A stretch of 52,962 nt of DNA from an uncultured Bacilli bacterium (GTDB lineage Bacteria; Bacillota_I; Bacilli_A; RF39; UBA660): NCBI GenBank assembly GCA_944372055.1, contig CALVYF010000006.1:1-52962 (forward strand). The letters run 5' to 3'. The position numbers and the translations under genes were made by a program. The notes beneath the pieces are model-generated. The model saw nothing but the letters and a program-made list of their open reading frames with translations. It made no database searches and was not told where the DNA came from. This document shows positions 45,120-52,962 of this stretch, piece after piece (position 1 is the stretch's first letter; the number at the start of each line of letters is the position of its first letter).

Positions 45120-45914
45120 ATGGCAAAATTTTGTAACAAATGCGGAAAACCATTAGTAGATGGCAAATGCTCACATTGTGAGCAAACTGAAAAAGAAGTA
45201 GTAGAGGCTACTTCTGAAGAAAATTTATTTATCGAATATCTTAATGTATTAAAAGGAATGTTCACCCATCCAGTTGCAACAATAAAAAAAGAGGCAACAG
45301 CAAAAAATCTTCCATTAGGAATTGTATCAATGGTAATTTGTGCAATATTATTTGGAATTTTCATACATGTATTATTAAGTAATATATTCTCATCTGTAGG
45401 TATGGATTTATCAGTAATCAGTACTATGATGGAACAATTAAATACCCAAATAGCAGCAACAGGATTGTCATTACCATCACTTTCAAATGTAGGAATAAAA
45501 ATGGCAATCATGTTTGCCATAGCATCAGTAATTATGGCAGGATTAATCTACTTAATGCATGCTGTAATATTTAAAAAGAAATTAGATTTTAAGAAAATAA
45601 TTTCTATGATAGGAATAATTGAAGTATCCTTTAGTGTACTTCTTTTAGCAGCAACCATATTATCATTTATTCATTATGTACTAGGTTTAATTATATTGAT
45701 ATTGGCAATAGCCTTCTTATTAGTACACTTACATCAAGGAATTTTAGTAATTTCCACAACAACTAAAACTCAAACAATTTATACAATTGCATTATGTGTA
45801 GGTATTGCGATTATCGCATTTACTTTATCATTAGTAACAGTACTAATATCTAGTATATTAGCACTAAGTCTTCAAACCACTAGTACCTCAATTAGTAGTG
45901 GACTAGGACTATAG
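45120..45914 (+). CDS. zinc-ribbon polytopic membrane protein (paralogue 1)
   Basis: 264 residues. Zinc ribbon FCNKCGKPLVDGKCSHCE, then a cytoplasmic segment (FIEYLNVLKGMFTHPVATIK) and five or six membrane helices, in the manner of the Yip1/DUF1282-like group. About 35-40% similar by eye to the next gene at the N-terminus, so the pair arose by duplication. Function unknown. AGAGAGGAG binding site. Confidence 0.75.
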   Translation: MAKFCNKCGKPLVDGKCSHCEQTEKEVVEATSEENLFIEYLNVLKGMFTHPVATIKKEATAKNLPLGIVSMVICAILFGIFIHVLLSNIFSSVGMDLSVISTMMEQLNTQIAATGLSLPSLSNVGIKMAIMFAIASVIMAGLIYLMHAVIFKKKLDFKKIISMIGIIEVSFSVLLLAATILSFIHYVLGLIILILAIAFLLVHLHQGILVISTTTKTQTIYTIALCVGIAIIAFTLSLVTVLISSILALSLQTTSTSISSGLGL

Positions 45915-45927
45915 AAAGGAGTAAACA

Positions 45928-46698
45928 ATGGCAAAGTTTTGTAATAAATGTGGAAAAGCATTAGTCGATGGAATTTGTCCTGATTGTTCTAAAAAAGAAG
46001 AAGTAAAAGAAGAACAAACAACAACAAGCAATTTAGGAAATGACTTATTAGATATTATAAAAAATATTTGGAAAAAGCCTATTGAAACAATAGAAAAATA
46101 TGTAAAAAAAGAAAATCTTCCATTATCATTTATTCTTTTAGGAATTGGTGTATTAGTAGGTGGAATATTCACATACTGTTATACAGATAGCATTGTAACT
46201 GGAATAGTTACACAAATAAATAATAAAATGGCAGGTATTGCTTCTATGATGGGGCAGTCTTATACTGCAACAACACCAATCACAACTATTCCATTTTTCC
46301 AATTGTTCTTATCAGGAATTTTAACTACAGCATTAGCCTATACATTCTTTATTCTTTTATCAAAACTATTTGTAGGAATTATCTTTAAAGGAAAAGCTAG
46401 TCTAAAACAATTTACTACAGCAGTTGCAACTGCTAGTGTATTTCCAACTCTATTTACATTAGTAGGGATTTTAACAAGTTTTATTTCATATCAATTGACA
46501 TCATTCGTTTATTTAATAGGTTTAATATTATTTATTGTAGTAGTTGTACAAAGTTTTATGGATGTATTAAAAGCAAAAGAAGAAAGATTAAGCTATGCAG
46601 TACCATTAACAGTTATTATCACTTATGTAGGTATTATTGTAATTAATATTATTGTTTTAGCCATAATCACATCAAGTCAAGTAACACCAATATATTAA
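45928..46698 (+). CDS. zinc-ribbon polytopic membrane protein (paralogue 2)
   Basis: 256 residues. Starts MAKFCNKCGKALVDGICPDC, nearly the same as paralogue 1, then DLLDIIKNIWKKPIETIEKY followed by a five- or six-helix membrane part. The N-terminal ribbon is the most conserved section; the membrane part has drifted. It is the last gene of the set, ending in a strong terminator. Confidence 0.75.
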   Translation: MAKFCNKCGKALVDGICPDCSKKEEVKEEQTTTSNLGNDLLDIIKNIWKKPIETIEKYVKKENLPLSFILLGIGVLVGGIFTYCYTDSIVTGIVTQINNKMAGIASMMGQSYTATTPITTIPFFQLFLSGILTTALAYTFFILLSKLFVGIIFKGKASLKQFTTAVATASVFPTLFTLVGILTSFISYQLTSFVYLIGLILFIVVVVQSFMDVLKAKEERLSYAVPLTVIITYVGIIVINIIVLAIITSSQVTPIY

Positions 46699-46774: not shown

Positions 46775-47218
46775 ATGAAACAAGAAAAATATGAAATGAT
46801 TGCAAAAGAACATAAAGCAAAGAATCCTAAACTACAAAATGCAATTGTTGCATTTTTAATAGGTGGAGTAATTGGAATGATAGGAGAAGGAATTATAGAA
46901 TTATTATGTAATATTTTTCATATGTCTAGAAATAATGCGGGGACGATTATGATAGTAATTATGATTTTTATAGCATCTCTTTCAACTGCTTTAGGATTTT
47001 TTGACAAATTAGTAACAAAATTTAAATGTGGTCTTTTAATACCAATCACTGGATTCGCTCATTCGATGACAAGTGCTGCACTAGATTATAAAAAAGAAGG
47101 CCCTATTTATGGAGTTGGAGCCAATATTTTTAAATTGGCAGGATCGGTAATTTTATATGGAATCGTGGCTGCATGGTTTTTTGGAATGATTCGTTATCTA
47201 TTAGGAGGTAGAATATGA
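46775..47218 (+). CDS. spoVAC: stage V sporulation protein AC
   Basis: 147 residues, near the usual 150. Four helices; LIGGVIGMIGEGI and the CGLLIPITGFAHSMTSAALD block with the pore-like pattern are typical. In the family SpoVAC is an inner-membrane channel protein needed for uptake of dipicolinic acid into spores and its release at germination. The stop overlaps spoVAD by 4 bp. The upstream stretch TGAAATA (46734-46740) and GAATATAA (46755-46762) loosely resembles a forespore-sigma promoter, which is weak evidence. Confidence 0.93.
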   Translation: MKQEKYEMIAKEHKAKNPKLQNAIVAFLIGGVIGMIGEGIIELLCNIFHMSRNNAGTIMIVIMIFIASLSTALGFFDKLVTKFKCGLLIPITGFAHSMTSAALDYKKEGPIYGVGANIFKLAGSVILYGIVAAWFFGMIRYLLGGRI

Positions 47219-48207
47219 CATTTACTTATAATGATGTATATGTAAAAGATACCGCAACGATTGCAGGTCCATATGAGAAGAAAGGTCCATTAAAAAAGTA
47301 TTTTGATAAAACTTTTGATGATTTATACTATGATGAGGACTCCTGGGAAAAAGCAGAAATAAAATCAGTAAAAGAAAGTCTAAAGTTATTACATAAGAAA
47401 GTTGGAATCAAAAGAAAAGAAGTAGATGTTATTTTAGGTGGAGATTTATTAAATCAGATAGCAGCGACTACCTATGGGGCATATAATTTTTCTAAATGTT
47501 TTCTAGGACTATATGGAGCTTGTTCCACTTCTGTAGAAGCAATGATACTAGGAAGTGTATTAATTGATGCAAAGAAAGTAAAAAATGCTATTGTAACTGT
47601 TTCCTCACACAATATGGCGGCCGAAAAACAATTCAGAAACCCAACGGAATATGGTGCACCAAAACCAAAAAGTGCTACCTTTACTGCAACAGGTAGTGCT
47701 TCCATGTTACTAACAAAAGAAAAAACAGACATTAAGGTAGAGTCTTCTACCATTGGACAAATTATAGACCTAAATCAAAATAATCCTAACGACATGGGAA
47801 AAGTGATGGCACCAGCTGCGATTGATACGATTAAAAGGCATTTAAAAGATTTAAATAGAAAACCAGACTACTATGATTTGATTGTAACTGGAGATTTGGG
47901 TTTATATGGGAAAGAAATATTAAAAGATTATATGTTAGAGGAATATGATTTAGATTTAAAAGATAATTACAATGACTGTGGAGTTATGCTATATGATTTA
48001 AAAGAACAAGAAGAGTGTCTTGCTGGAGGAAGTGGACCTGTCTGTAGTGCCTTAGTATCCTTTGGATATATCTATCATGAAATGAAAAAGAAAAATCTAA
48101 AAAGAGTACTAATCGTCGCAACAGGAGCCCTATTTTCTCCAACTATGGTTTATCAAAAAGAAAATATTTATTCAATTGCGAATGCAATTAGTTTGGAGGT
48201 AGTCTAA
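47215..48207 (+). CDS. spoVAD: stage V sporulation protein AD
   Basis: 330 residues, close to the 338 of B. subtilis. Thiolase-like fold with GLYGACSTSVEAMILG containing the position of the catalytic Cys, and ATFTATGSASMLL and GDLGLYGKEIL blocks. In the family SpoVAD binds dipicolinic acid rather than acting as a thiolase. The start overlaps spoVAC and the stop overlaps spoVAE (TAATG). Confidence 0.95.
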   Translation: MTFTYNDVYVKDTATIAGPYEKKGPLKKYFDKTFDDLYYDEDSWEKAEIKSVKESLKLLHKKVGIKRKEVDVILGGDLLNQIAATTYGAYNFSKCFLGLYGACSTSVEAMILGSVLIDAKKVKNAIVTVSSHNMAAEKQFRNPTEYGAPKPKSATFTATGSASMLLTKEKTDIKVESSTIGQIIDLNQNNPNDMGKVMAPAAIDTIKRHLKDLNRKPDYYDLIVTGDLGLYGKEILKDYMLEEYDLDLKDNYNDCGVMLYDLKEQEECLAGGSGPVCSALVSFGYIYHEMKKKNLKRVLIVATGALFSPTMVYQKENIYSIANAISLEVV

Positions 48208-48557
48208 TGTTACTTGTAAATTCATTTCTATTCTGCGGAATAGTATGTATGATTGCTCAAATTATATTAGATAATACAAAATTAACTCCTGGACATGTAA
48301 CTAGTATGTTTGTAGTATTTGGAGCTGTTTTAGATTCATTTAGTTTTTATGACAAAATTATAAAAGTAGTAGGGGGAGGAGCTTTATTACCAATAACTAG
48401 TTTTGGTCATTCTTTAATTCATGGAGCATTAGCCAAGGCAAACGAATATGGAATTCTAGGAATTCTGATGGGAATGTTTGATTTAACTGCAACAGGTATC
48501 ACAGCAGCAATCATCTTTTCCTTTATATTTACTTTAATATTTAAACCAAAAAACTAA
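48207..48557 (+). CDS. spoVAE: stage V sporulation protein AE (AEb type)
   Basis: 116 residues, exact family length. Four helices; LTPGHVTSMFVVFGAVLDSF and GGGALLPITSFGHSLIHGAL are characteristic. Together with spoVAC and spoVAD this is the minimal SpoVACDE set found in many clostridia and gut Firmicutes. No spoVAA, spoVAB or spoVAF is present next to it. Confidence 0.93.
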   Translation: MLLVNSFLFCGIVCMIAQIILDNTKLTPGHVTSMFVVFGAVLDSFSFYDKIIKVVGGGALLPITSFGHSLIHGALAKANEYGILGILMGMFDLTATGITAAIIFSFIFTLIFKPKN

Positions 48558-50808: not shown

Positions 50809-50839
50809 AGAAAAGAAAATGATAGACGGAAGTGATAAT

Positions 50840-51559
50840 ATGCAATTTAAAATTAACGAATTTGAAGGACCACTAGATTTATTGCTGCACTTAATTAAAG
50901 AAAATAAAATGGATATTATGAATATTGAAATAGAACGTATTACAGAACAATATATTTCATATTTAGATGAGCAAGAAAAAATGAATTTAGAAATTGCTAG
51001 TGAGTACTTAGTAATGGCTTCCGAATTAATTGAATTAAAATCAAAGTTATTACTTCCAAATCAAAAAAATGAAACAGAAGAAGAGGAAGAAGCAGATCCG
51101 AGAGAAGAATTAGTAAATAGACTTTTAGAATATCAAGCTTATAAAGAAATTACTAAAGTATTAAAAGAGAAAGAAGAATTACGAAAAGAAATTTATACTA
51201 AATCACCGGAAAGTGTAAAAAATTATGTAGATGAAAATGCCAAATTATCAAGTGATATTACTTTAGATGATTTAGTAGAGGCATTTAAAAAGTATCTAGA
51301 AAGAAAAAAAGAGACAAAGCCACTAAAAACAAAAGTGACAACAAATGAAATTAGTGTGTCTTCTAGAAGATTAGAAATAAAAAGCATTTTGAGAAGTAAA
51401 CCAAGAGTTTCATTCTTTGAATTATTTCCAGTTCTAAATAAAGAATATGTAGTTGCAACTTTTTTAGCAATTCTAGAGATGGCAAAAAATAAAGAATTAA
51501 AGATTACACAAGATAAAAATTTCGATGATATTATATGTGAGGTGCGGGATGAAAAATAA
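50840..51559 (+). CDS. scpA: segregation and condensation protein A
   Basis: 239 residues from ATG 50840 (GGAAGTGA just upstream; the earlier ATG at 50819 has no site). FKINEFEGPLDLLLHLIKEN and SELIELKSKLLLP are the N-terminal kleisin block that binds the Smc neck; VSFFELFPVLNKEYVVATFL AILEMAK at the C-terminus binds the Smc head. ScpA closes the Smc-ScpAB ring for chromosome compaction and segregation. It overlaps scpB by 11 bp. Confidence 0.95.
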   Translation: MQFKINEFEGPLDLLLHLIKENKMDIMNIEIERITEQYISYLDEQEKMNLEIASEYLVMASELIELKSKLLLPNQKNETEEEEEADPREELVNRLLEYQAYKEITKVLKEKEELRKEIYTKSPESVKNYVDENAKLSSDITLDDLVEAFKKYLERKKETKPLKTKVTTNEISVSSRRLEIKSILRSKPRVSFFELFPVLNKEYVVATFLAILEMAKNKELKITQDKNFDDIICEVRDEK

Positions 51560-52124
51560 AGCAGTATTAGAAGGATTATTATTTGTGGTAGGAGAAGATG
51601 GATTAACCCTAGATCAAATCGAAGAAGTATTAGAAATATCAGAAGATGAAGTAAAAGAACTAGTAAATGAATTAAAACATAGTTACGAAAAGGAAGACAG
51701 AGGACTAAGAATAGATTTTTTAGGGAATAGATTAAAACTAACTACGAAATTTGAACACAGAGAATATTATCAAAAATTATTAGAAAATCCTGAAACTAAT
51801 ATCTTGAGCCAAGCGGCTCTAGAAACATTAGCAATTATTGCTTATAATGAACCTCTTACCAGAATGCAAGTAGATAAAATAAGAGGGGTAAGTAGTGGTC
51901 AAATGATTCGTAAACTAGTTGCTAAAGGATTGATAAAAGAATCTGGTAGAAGTGATTTGCCAGGAAGGCCAATTCTTTATGAAACAACAAATGATTTTCT
52001 AGATTACTTTGGACTAAACAACATTCAAGAATTACCAGATATGGAAAAGTATATTGAAAAAGTAGAACAAGAACCGGATGATGAAAAAGATTTATACACA
52101 TCAAAATATAAAGAAGAAATGTAA
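51549..52124 (+). CDS. scpB: segregation and condensation protein B
   Basis: 191 residues from ATG 51549, with GAGGTGCGGG just before. Two winged-helix domains; ALETLAIIAYNEPLTRMQVD and GLIKESGRSDLPGRPILYET are conserved family blocks. ScpB dimers bind the middle of ScpA. Start at 51525 in the same frame is unlikely because it has no binding site. Confidence 0.95.
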   Translation: MKNKAVLEGLLFVVGEDGLTLDQIEEVLEISEDEVKELVNELKHSYEKEDRGLRIDFLGNRLKLTTKFEHREYYQKLLENPETNILSQAALETLAIIAYNEPLTRMQVDKIRGVSSGQMIRKLVAKGLIKESGRSDLPGRPILYETTNDFLDYFGLNNIQELPDMEKYIEKVEQEPDDEKDLYTSKYKEEM

Positions 52125-52547: not shown

Positions 52548-52748
52548 TATATATTTAAGATTCGTACTTTTAACACTACTTTTTTCTTATTCTAATTTTT
52601 CTATATAAACTCATAAAGTTCGAATATTTTCCAATAGTGCCATTGGAAAAGTTATTTACAGCTTGTTAACAATTTAATATAAGAAGCAATCACTATTTAA
52701 ATTATAACATACATTCTTAAAATTTTATCAAAAACATTTCTTGTTCGC
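52548..52748. other. AT-rich intergenic stretch without a gene
   Basis: No credible coding frame. It holds a 9-bp hairpin (TTTTCCAAT with ATTGGAAAA, 52627-52650) and, on the minus strand, an extended -10 (TG-T, TATAAT at 52701-52706) with TTGATA at 52726-52731 (19-nt spacer). A leftward transcript of about 200 nt would end at the 52493-52547 hairpin. Confidence 0.5.
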
Positions 52749-52777
52749 TTGTTTTATGAATATATTTATTATATAAT
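52749..52777 (+). promoter_or_regulatory. SigA-type promoter of small hydrophobic peptide gene
   Basis: TTGTTT (52749-52754), 17-nt spacer, TATAAT (52772-52777). The transcript should begin near 52784. Confidence 0.7.
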
Positions 52778-52798
52778 TCTAACAGGAACATTTGATGT

Positions 52799-52833
52799 GA
52801 GTGTCGTCCTCCAATCTTGAGAAAGAAAGGAGG
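52799..52833 (+). promoter_or_regulatory. 5' leader: long-range pairing heptamer and SD-sequestering hairpin
   Basis: GAGTGTC (52799-52805) can pair with GACACTC at 52932-52938. Next, CCTCC (52808-52812) pairs with GGAGG (52829-52833), an AA/AA internal loop, then TCTT with AAGA, capped by a GAGA tetraloop. The Shine-Dalgarno is in the closing stem. Confidence 0.7.
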
Positions 52834-52840
52834 GATAGAA

Positions 52841-52933
52841 ATGAAGAAAAGAACTTTTATAATAAAAGTCCTTCGTCTTATTGCTATCATTTTATTACTC
52901 CTTACCTTATTGGTAATAGCAATAAAAATATGA
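52841..52933 (+). CDS. 30-residue hydrophobic peptide, candidate type I toxin
   Basis: Thirty residues: basic N-terminus MKKRTFIIKVLR, then one membrane helix (LIAIILLLLTLLVIAI) and a Lys near the end. AAAGGAGGG lies 6 nt before the ATG. Size, charge pattern and hydrophobicity match type I toxins (TxpA, Fst and holin-like toxin groups), though the sequence itself is not assigned to one. The message has the control marks of such toxins: a sequestered ribosome binding site and competing 5'-3' and 3'-local pairings. The antitoxin RNA is not identified and may lie past the window edge. A harmless small membrane protein or a leader peptide are alternatives. Confidence 0.6.
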   Translation: MKKRTFIIKVLRLIAIILLLLTLLVIAIKI

Positions 52934-52960
52934 CACTCTCTCATCTCTGATTGAGTGTCA
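52931..52960 (+). terminator. 3' hairpin of the peptide gene, truncated by window edge
   Basis: TGACACTC (52931-52938), 14-nt loop, GAGTGTCA (52953-52960). The stop codon TGA is in the stem. The T tract, if any, lies outside the window. Confidence 0.6.
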
Positions 52961-52962
52961 AC

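Follow-up and report, generated by a model that had tools for sequence, protein, structure and literature searches.

A candidate type I toxin–antitoxin family with an end-to-end mRNA lock and convergent antisense control in uncultured Bacilli

Type I toxin–antitoxin systems are thought to be narrow in range and hard to find computationally. The AapA peptide is small and cationic, with about 30 amino acids (aa). In the Hok system, a mok reading frame is present and Sok targets the leader. AapA/IsoA of Helicobacter pylori is a multicopy chromosomal type I system with a very stable full-length toxin mRNA, in which a 5′–3′ long-distance interaction is combined with local hairpins that mask the Shine–Dalgarno (SD) sequence; the 3′ end itself masks the SD (aSD3), and 3′ truncation yields a translatable mRNA (PMC6733600). 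The full-length mRNA of Hok/Sok (plasmid R1) is inert, is paired end to end and requires 3′ processing (PMC6733600). In BsrG/SR4, TxpA/RatA and BsrE/SR5 of Bacillus subtilis, which encode short hydrophobic peptides, a convergent antisense RNA shares 100–140 bp with the 3′ end of the toxin mRNA; RNase III cuts the duplex in TxpA/RatA and BsrG/SR4, and SR4 also alters folding around the SD (PMC6562991). Fst and its RNA I–RNA II pair (par of pAD1) use convergent promoters, an mRNA of ~230 nt encoding a ~30-aa peptide, a 5′ stem-loop that masks the SD, a sequestered 5′ end, one shared bidirectional terminator and the direct repeats DRa and DRb; the peptide has a charged C-terminus with a conserved Trp and a PXXXG motif (PMC7472228). 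Convergent, overlapping toxin and antitoxin genes are also found in the CD2517.1–RCd8, CD2907.1–RCd9 and CD0956.2–RCd10 pairs of Clostridioides difficile, with small, hydrophobic toxins that lack homology to other families (PMC6563280).

Here we analyzed a locus at the 3′ end of a 52,962-nt stretch of DNA (the window), which is the complete contig C6 of a 1.35-Mb assembly of 63 contigs from an uncultured Bacilli bacterium. A first-pass annotation of positions 52749–52962 had proposed a new type I toxin gene with a built-in RNA switch; the anatomy and conservation described below support such a gene, as far as sequence can tell, but the exact Hok/AapA switch logic is unsupported in silico. From sequence alone, we give a probability of roughly 85% that the locus is a type I toxin–antitoxin system in which an end-to-end mRNA lock is combined with a convergent 3′ antisense RNA. 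The best reading of the element is a new type I family that would unite the AapA/Hok-like end-to-end lock with Fst/BsrG-like convergent antisense control.

Because the window is a whole contig and the locus runs off its end, this copy lacks the sense terminator and the antisense promoter, and its complete anatomy, with its own 3′ half missing, is reconstructed from relatives. The closest copies, from the congeners G004 and G009, are 97–98% identical across ~220 bp, go on past the C6 break and run through both the sense terminator and the antisense promoter. The assembly break at 52962 was probably caused by the repeat. The last 41 bases of the window match a covariance model of the 3′ module right up to the contig end, and the low score of this copy is explained by the presence of only the first 42 model positions. 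None of 200 dinucleotide shuffles folded as well as the truncated window transcript (z = −4.37), and complete transcripts from six relatives gave folding z values of −6.5 to −11. The last identified genes upstream of the element are scpA (50819–51559) and scpB (51525–52124). Just 5′ of the promoter, positions 52586–52740 are ~70% like the downstream tail of two other copies (L022 and L029), which points to an upstream tandem copy that has decayed. Elsewhere in the window, SpoVAC, SpoVAD and SpoVAEB-like genes lie in a row (46775–48557), placing sporulation genes in a 1.35-Mb uncultured Bacilli genome, and an adjoining paralogue pair (45120–46698; MAKFCNKCGK...) combines a zinc-ribbon-like start with weak Yip1-like membrane domains under the Pfam cut-off.

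The predicted toxin-gene promoter occupies 52749–52777 on the forward strand (−35 TTGTTT at 52749–52754, 17-bp spacer and −10 TATAAT at 52772–52777), with the predicted transcription start of the toxin mRNA at about 52784–52785; spacing from the −10 element to the ATG is 61–75 bp in nearly all relatives. The 5′ leader (52785–52807, forward strand) consists of GGAACATTT (52785–52793) and GTGAGTGTCGT (52797–52807), contains the heptamer GAGTGTC at 52799–52805 and, as judged by covariation, duplex energy and folds, forms the 5′ strand of a long-distance interaction. It is followed by the SD hairpin (52808–52833, forward strand), in which CCTCC (52808–52812) pairs with GGAGG (52829–52833), and TCTT (52815–52818) with AAGA (52823–52826) around a GAGA loop (52819–52822). 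This hairpin is kept among relatives with changes on both sides, at a median of −9.7 kcal/mol when folded alone. The first-pass annotation had placed the promoter, leader heptamer, SD hairpin, 30-codon open reading frame (ORF) and GACACTC/GAGTGTC repeats correctly, as it had the additional match of GATG (52794–52797) with CATC (52942–52945), and the leader hairpin and heptamers turned out to be conserved among relatives with compensatory changes.

In 5′-to-3′ order, the complete unit comprises the promoter, the leader AGGAACATTT with GAGTGTC, the SD hairpin, an ORF of 24–34 codons, a stop-codon hairpin, a linker and the sense terminator (for example, GAGGCGACATTCAC...AATGTTCCTC TTTTTT), and then a convergent promoter on the opposite strand. 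We parsed 71 complete units from exact-motif matches, and 65 distinct copies were used in the covariation alignment. The 3′ UTR of the window's toxin mRNA (52934–52962, forward strand) is cut by the contig end; its counterparts in G004 and G009 run on into the sense terminator. Folding energies of complete mRNAs range from −51 to −86 kcal/mol, their first 24 nt pair with the last 55 nt at a median probability of 0.95 and deletion of the last 50 nt removes ~27 kcal/mol of folding energy. The partners of the leader at 52785–52807 are the two arms of the sense terminator, located past the contig end and taken from relatives; the duplex of the window leader with the G009 terminator has an energy of −37.1 kcal/mol. 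The 5′–3′ pairing proposed at first pass is supported by covariation, but its main 3′ partner is this terminator rather than the heptamer at the stop codon.

Across the 65 copies, 92.0% of the cells in the 5′–3′ helix are paired (82.3% when shuffled), 14 of 22 pairs show changes on both sides, double-change cells number 180 (65.5 when shuffled) and the covariation score is 0.427 (0.250 when shuffled and at most 0.159 with slid partners). Since the shuffled control retains kinship between copies, we also relied on the slid control, on how well leaders match their own terminators and on the wobble bias. Many of the copies were chosen by exact match to a motif covering the terminator and antisense 5′ end, so that conservation of this motif is partly ascertainment. 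Leader, stop hairpin and terminator arm have one motif in common, and homogenized copies would thereby gain complementarity automatically; two terminators and an inverted duplication could then explain the leader/terminator match as a side effect, with no working mRNA fold. We consider this very unlikely. Irregular cells in the helix favor G-U over A-C (129 versus 25), pointing to selection on the sense RNA, and leaders bind their own terminators (−34.1 kcal/mol) better than those of other copies (−23.5 kcal/mol), with shuffled leaders at −10.8 kcal/mol. The helix also extends into a second, unrelated outer part, GGAACATT/AATGTTCC, which has its own double changes. A stable 5′–3′ long-distance interaction in the full-length mRNA is, thus, supported by both covariation and pairing probability.

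End-to-end pairing in the full-length mRNA is shared with Hok, and the element also resembles AapA/IsoA in its multiple copies, end-to-end mRNA pairing, SD-masking hairpin and cationic peptide of ~30 aa. Unlike in AapA, the SD is masked by a hairpin of its own and is not freed by trimming in silico, with a median unpaired value of 0.24 in full-length RNA and 0.36 in 3′-trimmed RNA, which speaks against the AapA switch being simply reproduced here. Mutually exclusive 5′–3′ and 3′-local pairing had been envisaged as the control logic; mutual exclusion of the 5′–3′ pairing and the SD hairpin was rejected, as both are present in the predicted folds, stacked on each other. The 24-nt leader alone opens upon trimming (0.08 to 0.43 unpaired in silico). 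A ribosome standby site is known for TisB, and we speculate by analogy that the lock might take away such a site. No sequence similarity to AapA/IsoA was found through the family libraries and, given this and the behavior of the SD in silico, membership in the AapA family is not claimed. Further differences are a predicted convergent antisense RNA covering the 3′ UTR, in contrast to AapA/IsoA, and, in contrast to Hok/Sok, an antisense overlap with the 3′ UTR and no second frame seen.

At the toxin stop codon, the inverted repeat GACACTC (52932–52938)/GAGTGTC (52953–52959) is conserved with changes on both sides. GACACTC had been assigned two possible partners at first pass, in the leader and just downstream. 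Both complementarities are conserved, that of the leader with the stop-side arm at 89.4%, but the hairpin appears to serve mainly as the terminator of a predicted antisense RNA (52932–52959, reverse strand), although the same DNA also yields an mRNA hairpin at the stop codon. Its irregular pairs on the sense strand are A-C rather than G-U (31 versus 8), and it is more stable on the antisense strand in 44 of the 71 copies and on the sense strand in three. On the antisense strand, the sequence after the hairpin is complementary to the A-rich ORF end (CATATTTTTATT in the window), giving a T-run complementary to AATAAAAATAT (52921–52931). The A-C excess, which corresponds to G-U on the antisense strand, and the T-run together make an antisense terminator the best reading. 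Both arms of the hairpin carry one and the same motif, and leader pairing with the stop-side arm may have a role of its own, either within the trimmed mRNA (in cis) or with the antisense RNA (in trans).

The search for an antisense promoter beyond the window, which had been suggested as a check, was productive: complete copies contain a convergent promoter-like site, TTGnnA-17-TATTAT, at a fixed position, as they do the antisense terminator. When scored against TTGACA-17-TATAAT (maximum 12.5), a site reaching at least 9.5 lies on the opposite strand 28–31 bp past the sense U-run in 63 of 70 copies, compared to 1.5% of shuffled DNA, with information peaks at TTG..A, the TG before the −10 element and TATTAT. 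The window itself holds the 3′ part of the putative antitoxin (52922–52962, reverse strand), the promoter and 5′ half of which lie past the contig end and are read from relatives only (for example, L023 and L022). Predicted antisense RNAs are 117–132 nt long and fold into a small hairpin at the 5′ end, a structure complementary to the sense terminator and the terminator hairpin at the 3′ end. In sequence, their 5′ half resembles the mRNA leader, since the two share complementarity to one 3′ strand; an antisense RNA that bound there would have to displace the leader.

The two predicted transcription units are, thus, convergent and their overlap is confined to the 3′ end of the toxin mRNA, the arrangement that characterizes BsrG and TxpA. 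The overlap is ~90–110 bp here and the antisense RNA ends at the stop codon; a long 5′–3′ helix with the terminator arms has not been described for BsrG, TxpA or BsrE. The C. difficile RCd pairs share the convergent overlap and the small hydrophobic peptide but belong to a different host group, the sequence comparison being through family libraries only. With Fst, the element has in common convergent promoters, an mRNA of ~230 nt, a peptide of ~30 aa, a 5′ stem-loop over the SD and a sequestered 5′ end. Unlike Fst, it has two separate terminators, repeats that are inverted in the DNA and a peptide that is basic at the N-terminus.

The putative toxin ORF (52841–52933, forward strand; ATG at 52841 and TGA at 52931–52933) encodes the 30-aa peptide MKKRTFIIKVLRLIAIILLLLTLLVIAIKI with a GRAVY of 1.9. 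Peptides of the parsed copies are all 24–34 aa long, hydrophobic and basic, and ORF length, SD and start are preserved across the 71 copies. In-frame dN/dS is 0.47 among 42 sequences of the window's subfamily and its sister (0.86 and 1.09 in the other two frames) and 0.24 among 13 sequences of the KKKDLLI subfamily (0.51 and 2.39 in the other two frames). These ratios indicate that the peptide frame evolves under purifying selection, in agreement with the gene proposed at first pass. Several peptide subfamilies can be distinguished (KKRTFIIKVLRLIAIILLLLTLLVIAIKI, KTKTFIIKVLKLIAIILFLLIIMIVVIKK, KKKDLLISFLILIIILLIVSLMILCIKK, TKKDFLIFALIVIIILLILLLFK and HKKDFLIFALIIIIFLLIGLLFTLV), with the control RNA common to all; the peptide sequence diverges between subfamilies while the control RNA stays, and some decayed copies retain the terminator with the ORF gone.

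Searches of Pfam, NCBIfam, PHROGs and PADLOC with the peptides gave no credible match, consistent with the initial view that the peptide lies outside nameable families. The best library match, SecE (E = 0.035), was dismissed as a transmembrane-helix coincidence. No homology to BsrG, TxpA or YonT was detected in Pfam, NCBIfam and PHROGs, assuming that these libraries contain the families, and no Fst/Ldr match rose above noise in Pfam or NCBIfam. By inspection, the charged C-terminus with Trp and PXXXG of Fst/Ldr is absent from all parsed peptides; as the shared terminator and direct repeats are likewise missing, the element is, on these sequence features, outside Fst/Ldr. An Rfam scan of the window end and one complete copy returned chance matches below threshold only, and no account of the family was found in open-licence papers, which is weak evidence.

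When 60 relatives were searched at the DNA level, ~20 genomes belonging to the same family contained the unit at scattered sites, often with several copies each. In named genome records, the exact terminator-region motif matched at least 117 stretches, nearly all of them labelled as metagenome-assembled genomes (MAGs) of uncultured Bacilli, Bacillales, Erysipelotrichaceae, Tenericutes or Mycoplasma, among them Candidatus Onthousia and Ca. Ventrenecus. With the covariance model of the 3′ module, the element was found in 206 of 288 genomes of the order (~70%), representing 77 of 102 genera. In a class-wide sample, 30 of 346 genomes were positive and just one, G473, lies outside the window's family; its single strong match (L189, 7e-19) likely reflects transfer or MAG contamination. 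Genomes searched at full depth, 1.1–1.5 Mb in size, carry 11–18 copies each. Tandem copies, which the first-pass annotation had suggested looking for, commonly form arrays and are accompanied by dispersed ones; multiple and tandem copies are also a feature of other type I families. The genome that contains the window holds another copy, this one complete (L188; C43:4257–4364, reverse strand), with a different peptide, MKKDTIICLLFIIVFLLLAFLIIFMAKYKKRHST, and the full 5′–3′ fold. Phage records gave no match, the motif was absent from viral contigs and plasmids gave one weak 43-bp match; these searches provide no evidence of carriage by phages or plasmids.

Copies also differ in position between species. 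The near-identical copy of G009 is not beside scpB, and the scpB–tRNA-Leu locus is empty in G010, G011 and G001, whereas the element sits directly behind the tRNA in G005 and G006 (site downstream of scpB; L210, L211 and L212 empty, L215 and L216 occupied). Copies have, therefore, been gained or lost between congeners. The peptide might instead be a small regulated membrane peptide other than a toxin, such as a membrane-protein modulator, under antisense control. A housekeeping micropeptide could likewise show a frame under purifying selection and occur in most genomes of the order, but up to 18 copies in a genome of 1.1–1.5 Mb fit a selfish or addiction module better, and gain and loss between congeners, peptide divergence under a retained control RNA and decayed copies that keep the terminator without the ORF all speak against it; we judge a non-toxin role unlikely.

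Among 81 copies from the named records (L056–L135), 32 have a tRNA gene within 500 bp, compared to 9% of random positions in the same loci. In all 32, the tRNA is on the 3′ side of the element with its own 3′ end facing it, at a distance of 60–146 bp in 31 (mostly ~60 or ~90 bp); for example, L060:4918–5004 and L078:5945–6029. The adjoining tRNAs are Leu, Thr, Arg, Met and Ala, and by inspection the antisense −35 element lies inside the loop of a terminator-like hairpin in L056, L060 and L078, a hairpin that resembles the terminator of the tRNA unit. The multicopy, dispersed distribution and the single orientation beside tRNA 3′ ends would also be expected of a non-coding, hairpin-rich repeat spreading near tRNA genes with an incidental ORF. 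We consider such a repeat extremely unlikely, given an in-frame dN/dS of 0.24–0.47 (0.5–2.4 in the other frames) and an ORF length, SD and start kept in 71 parsed copies. For the preferred type I system, the ~40% of copies that lie 60–150 bp behind a tRNA would have their antisense RNA on the tRNA's strand. It is conceivable, though rather improbable, that antitoxin supply is tied to tRNA genes, with spread by 3′-end insertion and an antisense level that follows tRNA transcription; if true, toxin would be released when stable-RNA synthesis drops.

In the type I model, the sigma-70-type promoter would produce an mRNA of ~230 nt encoding a membrane peptide of 30 residues that is basic at both ends. 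When the mRNA is complete, its leader would pair with both arms of the 3′ terminator, stacked on the local hairpin that hides the SD, and the full-length message would thereby be stable and poorly translated. From the convergent promoter just beyond the sense terminator, an antisense RNA of ~120 nt, complementary to the entire 3′ UTR and ending at the toxin stop codon, would be transcribed. It would bind the 3′ UTR and displace the leader, and the duplex would be cleaved and decay, probably through RNase III by analogy with TxpA/RatA and BsrG/SR4. Once the antisense RNA is exhausted, surviving messages would shed the lock by 3′ processing, a step that may be needed for translation as it is for AapA, and would undergo slow translation past the weak hairpin. 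The peptide would then insert into the membrane, and its presumed toxicity would consist of membrane harm.

If this model is correct, the element joins two control designs known separately, the end-to-end mRNA lock and the convergent 3′ antisense RNA, and the 5′ half of its predicted antisense RNA mimics the very leader that it would displace. Roughly 70% of the genomes sampled from an entire order of uncultured Bacilli with reduced genomes carry the element, some in as many as 18 copies, and the hundreds of copies amount to a natural covariation data set. Because both peptide and pairing motif diverge from copy to copy, cross-talk and toxin diversification would be directly testable.
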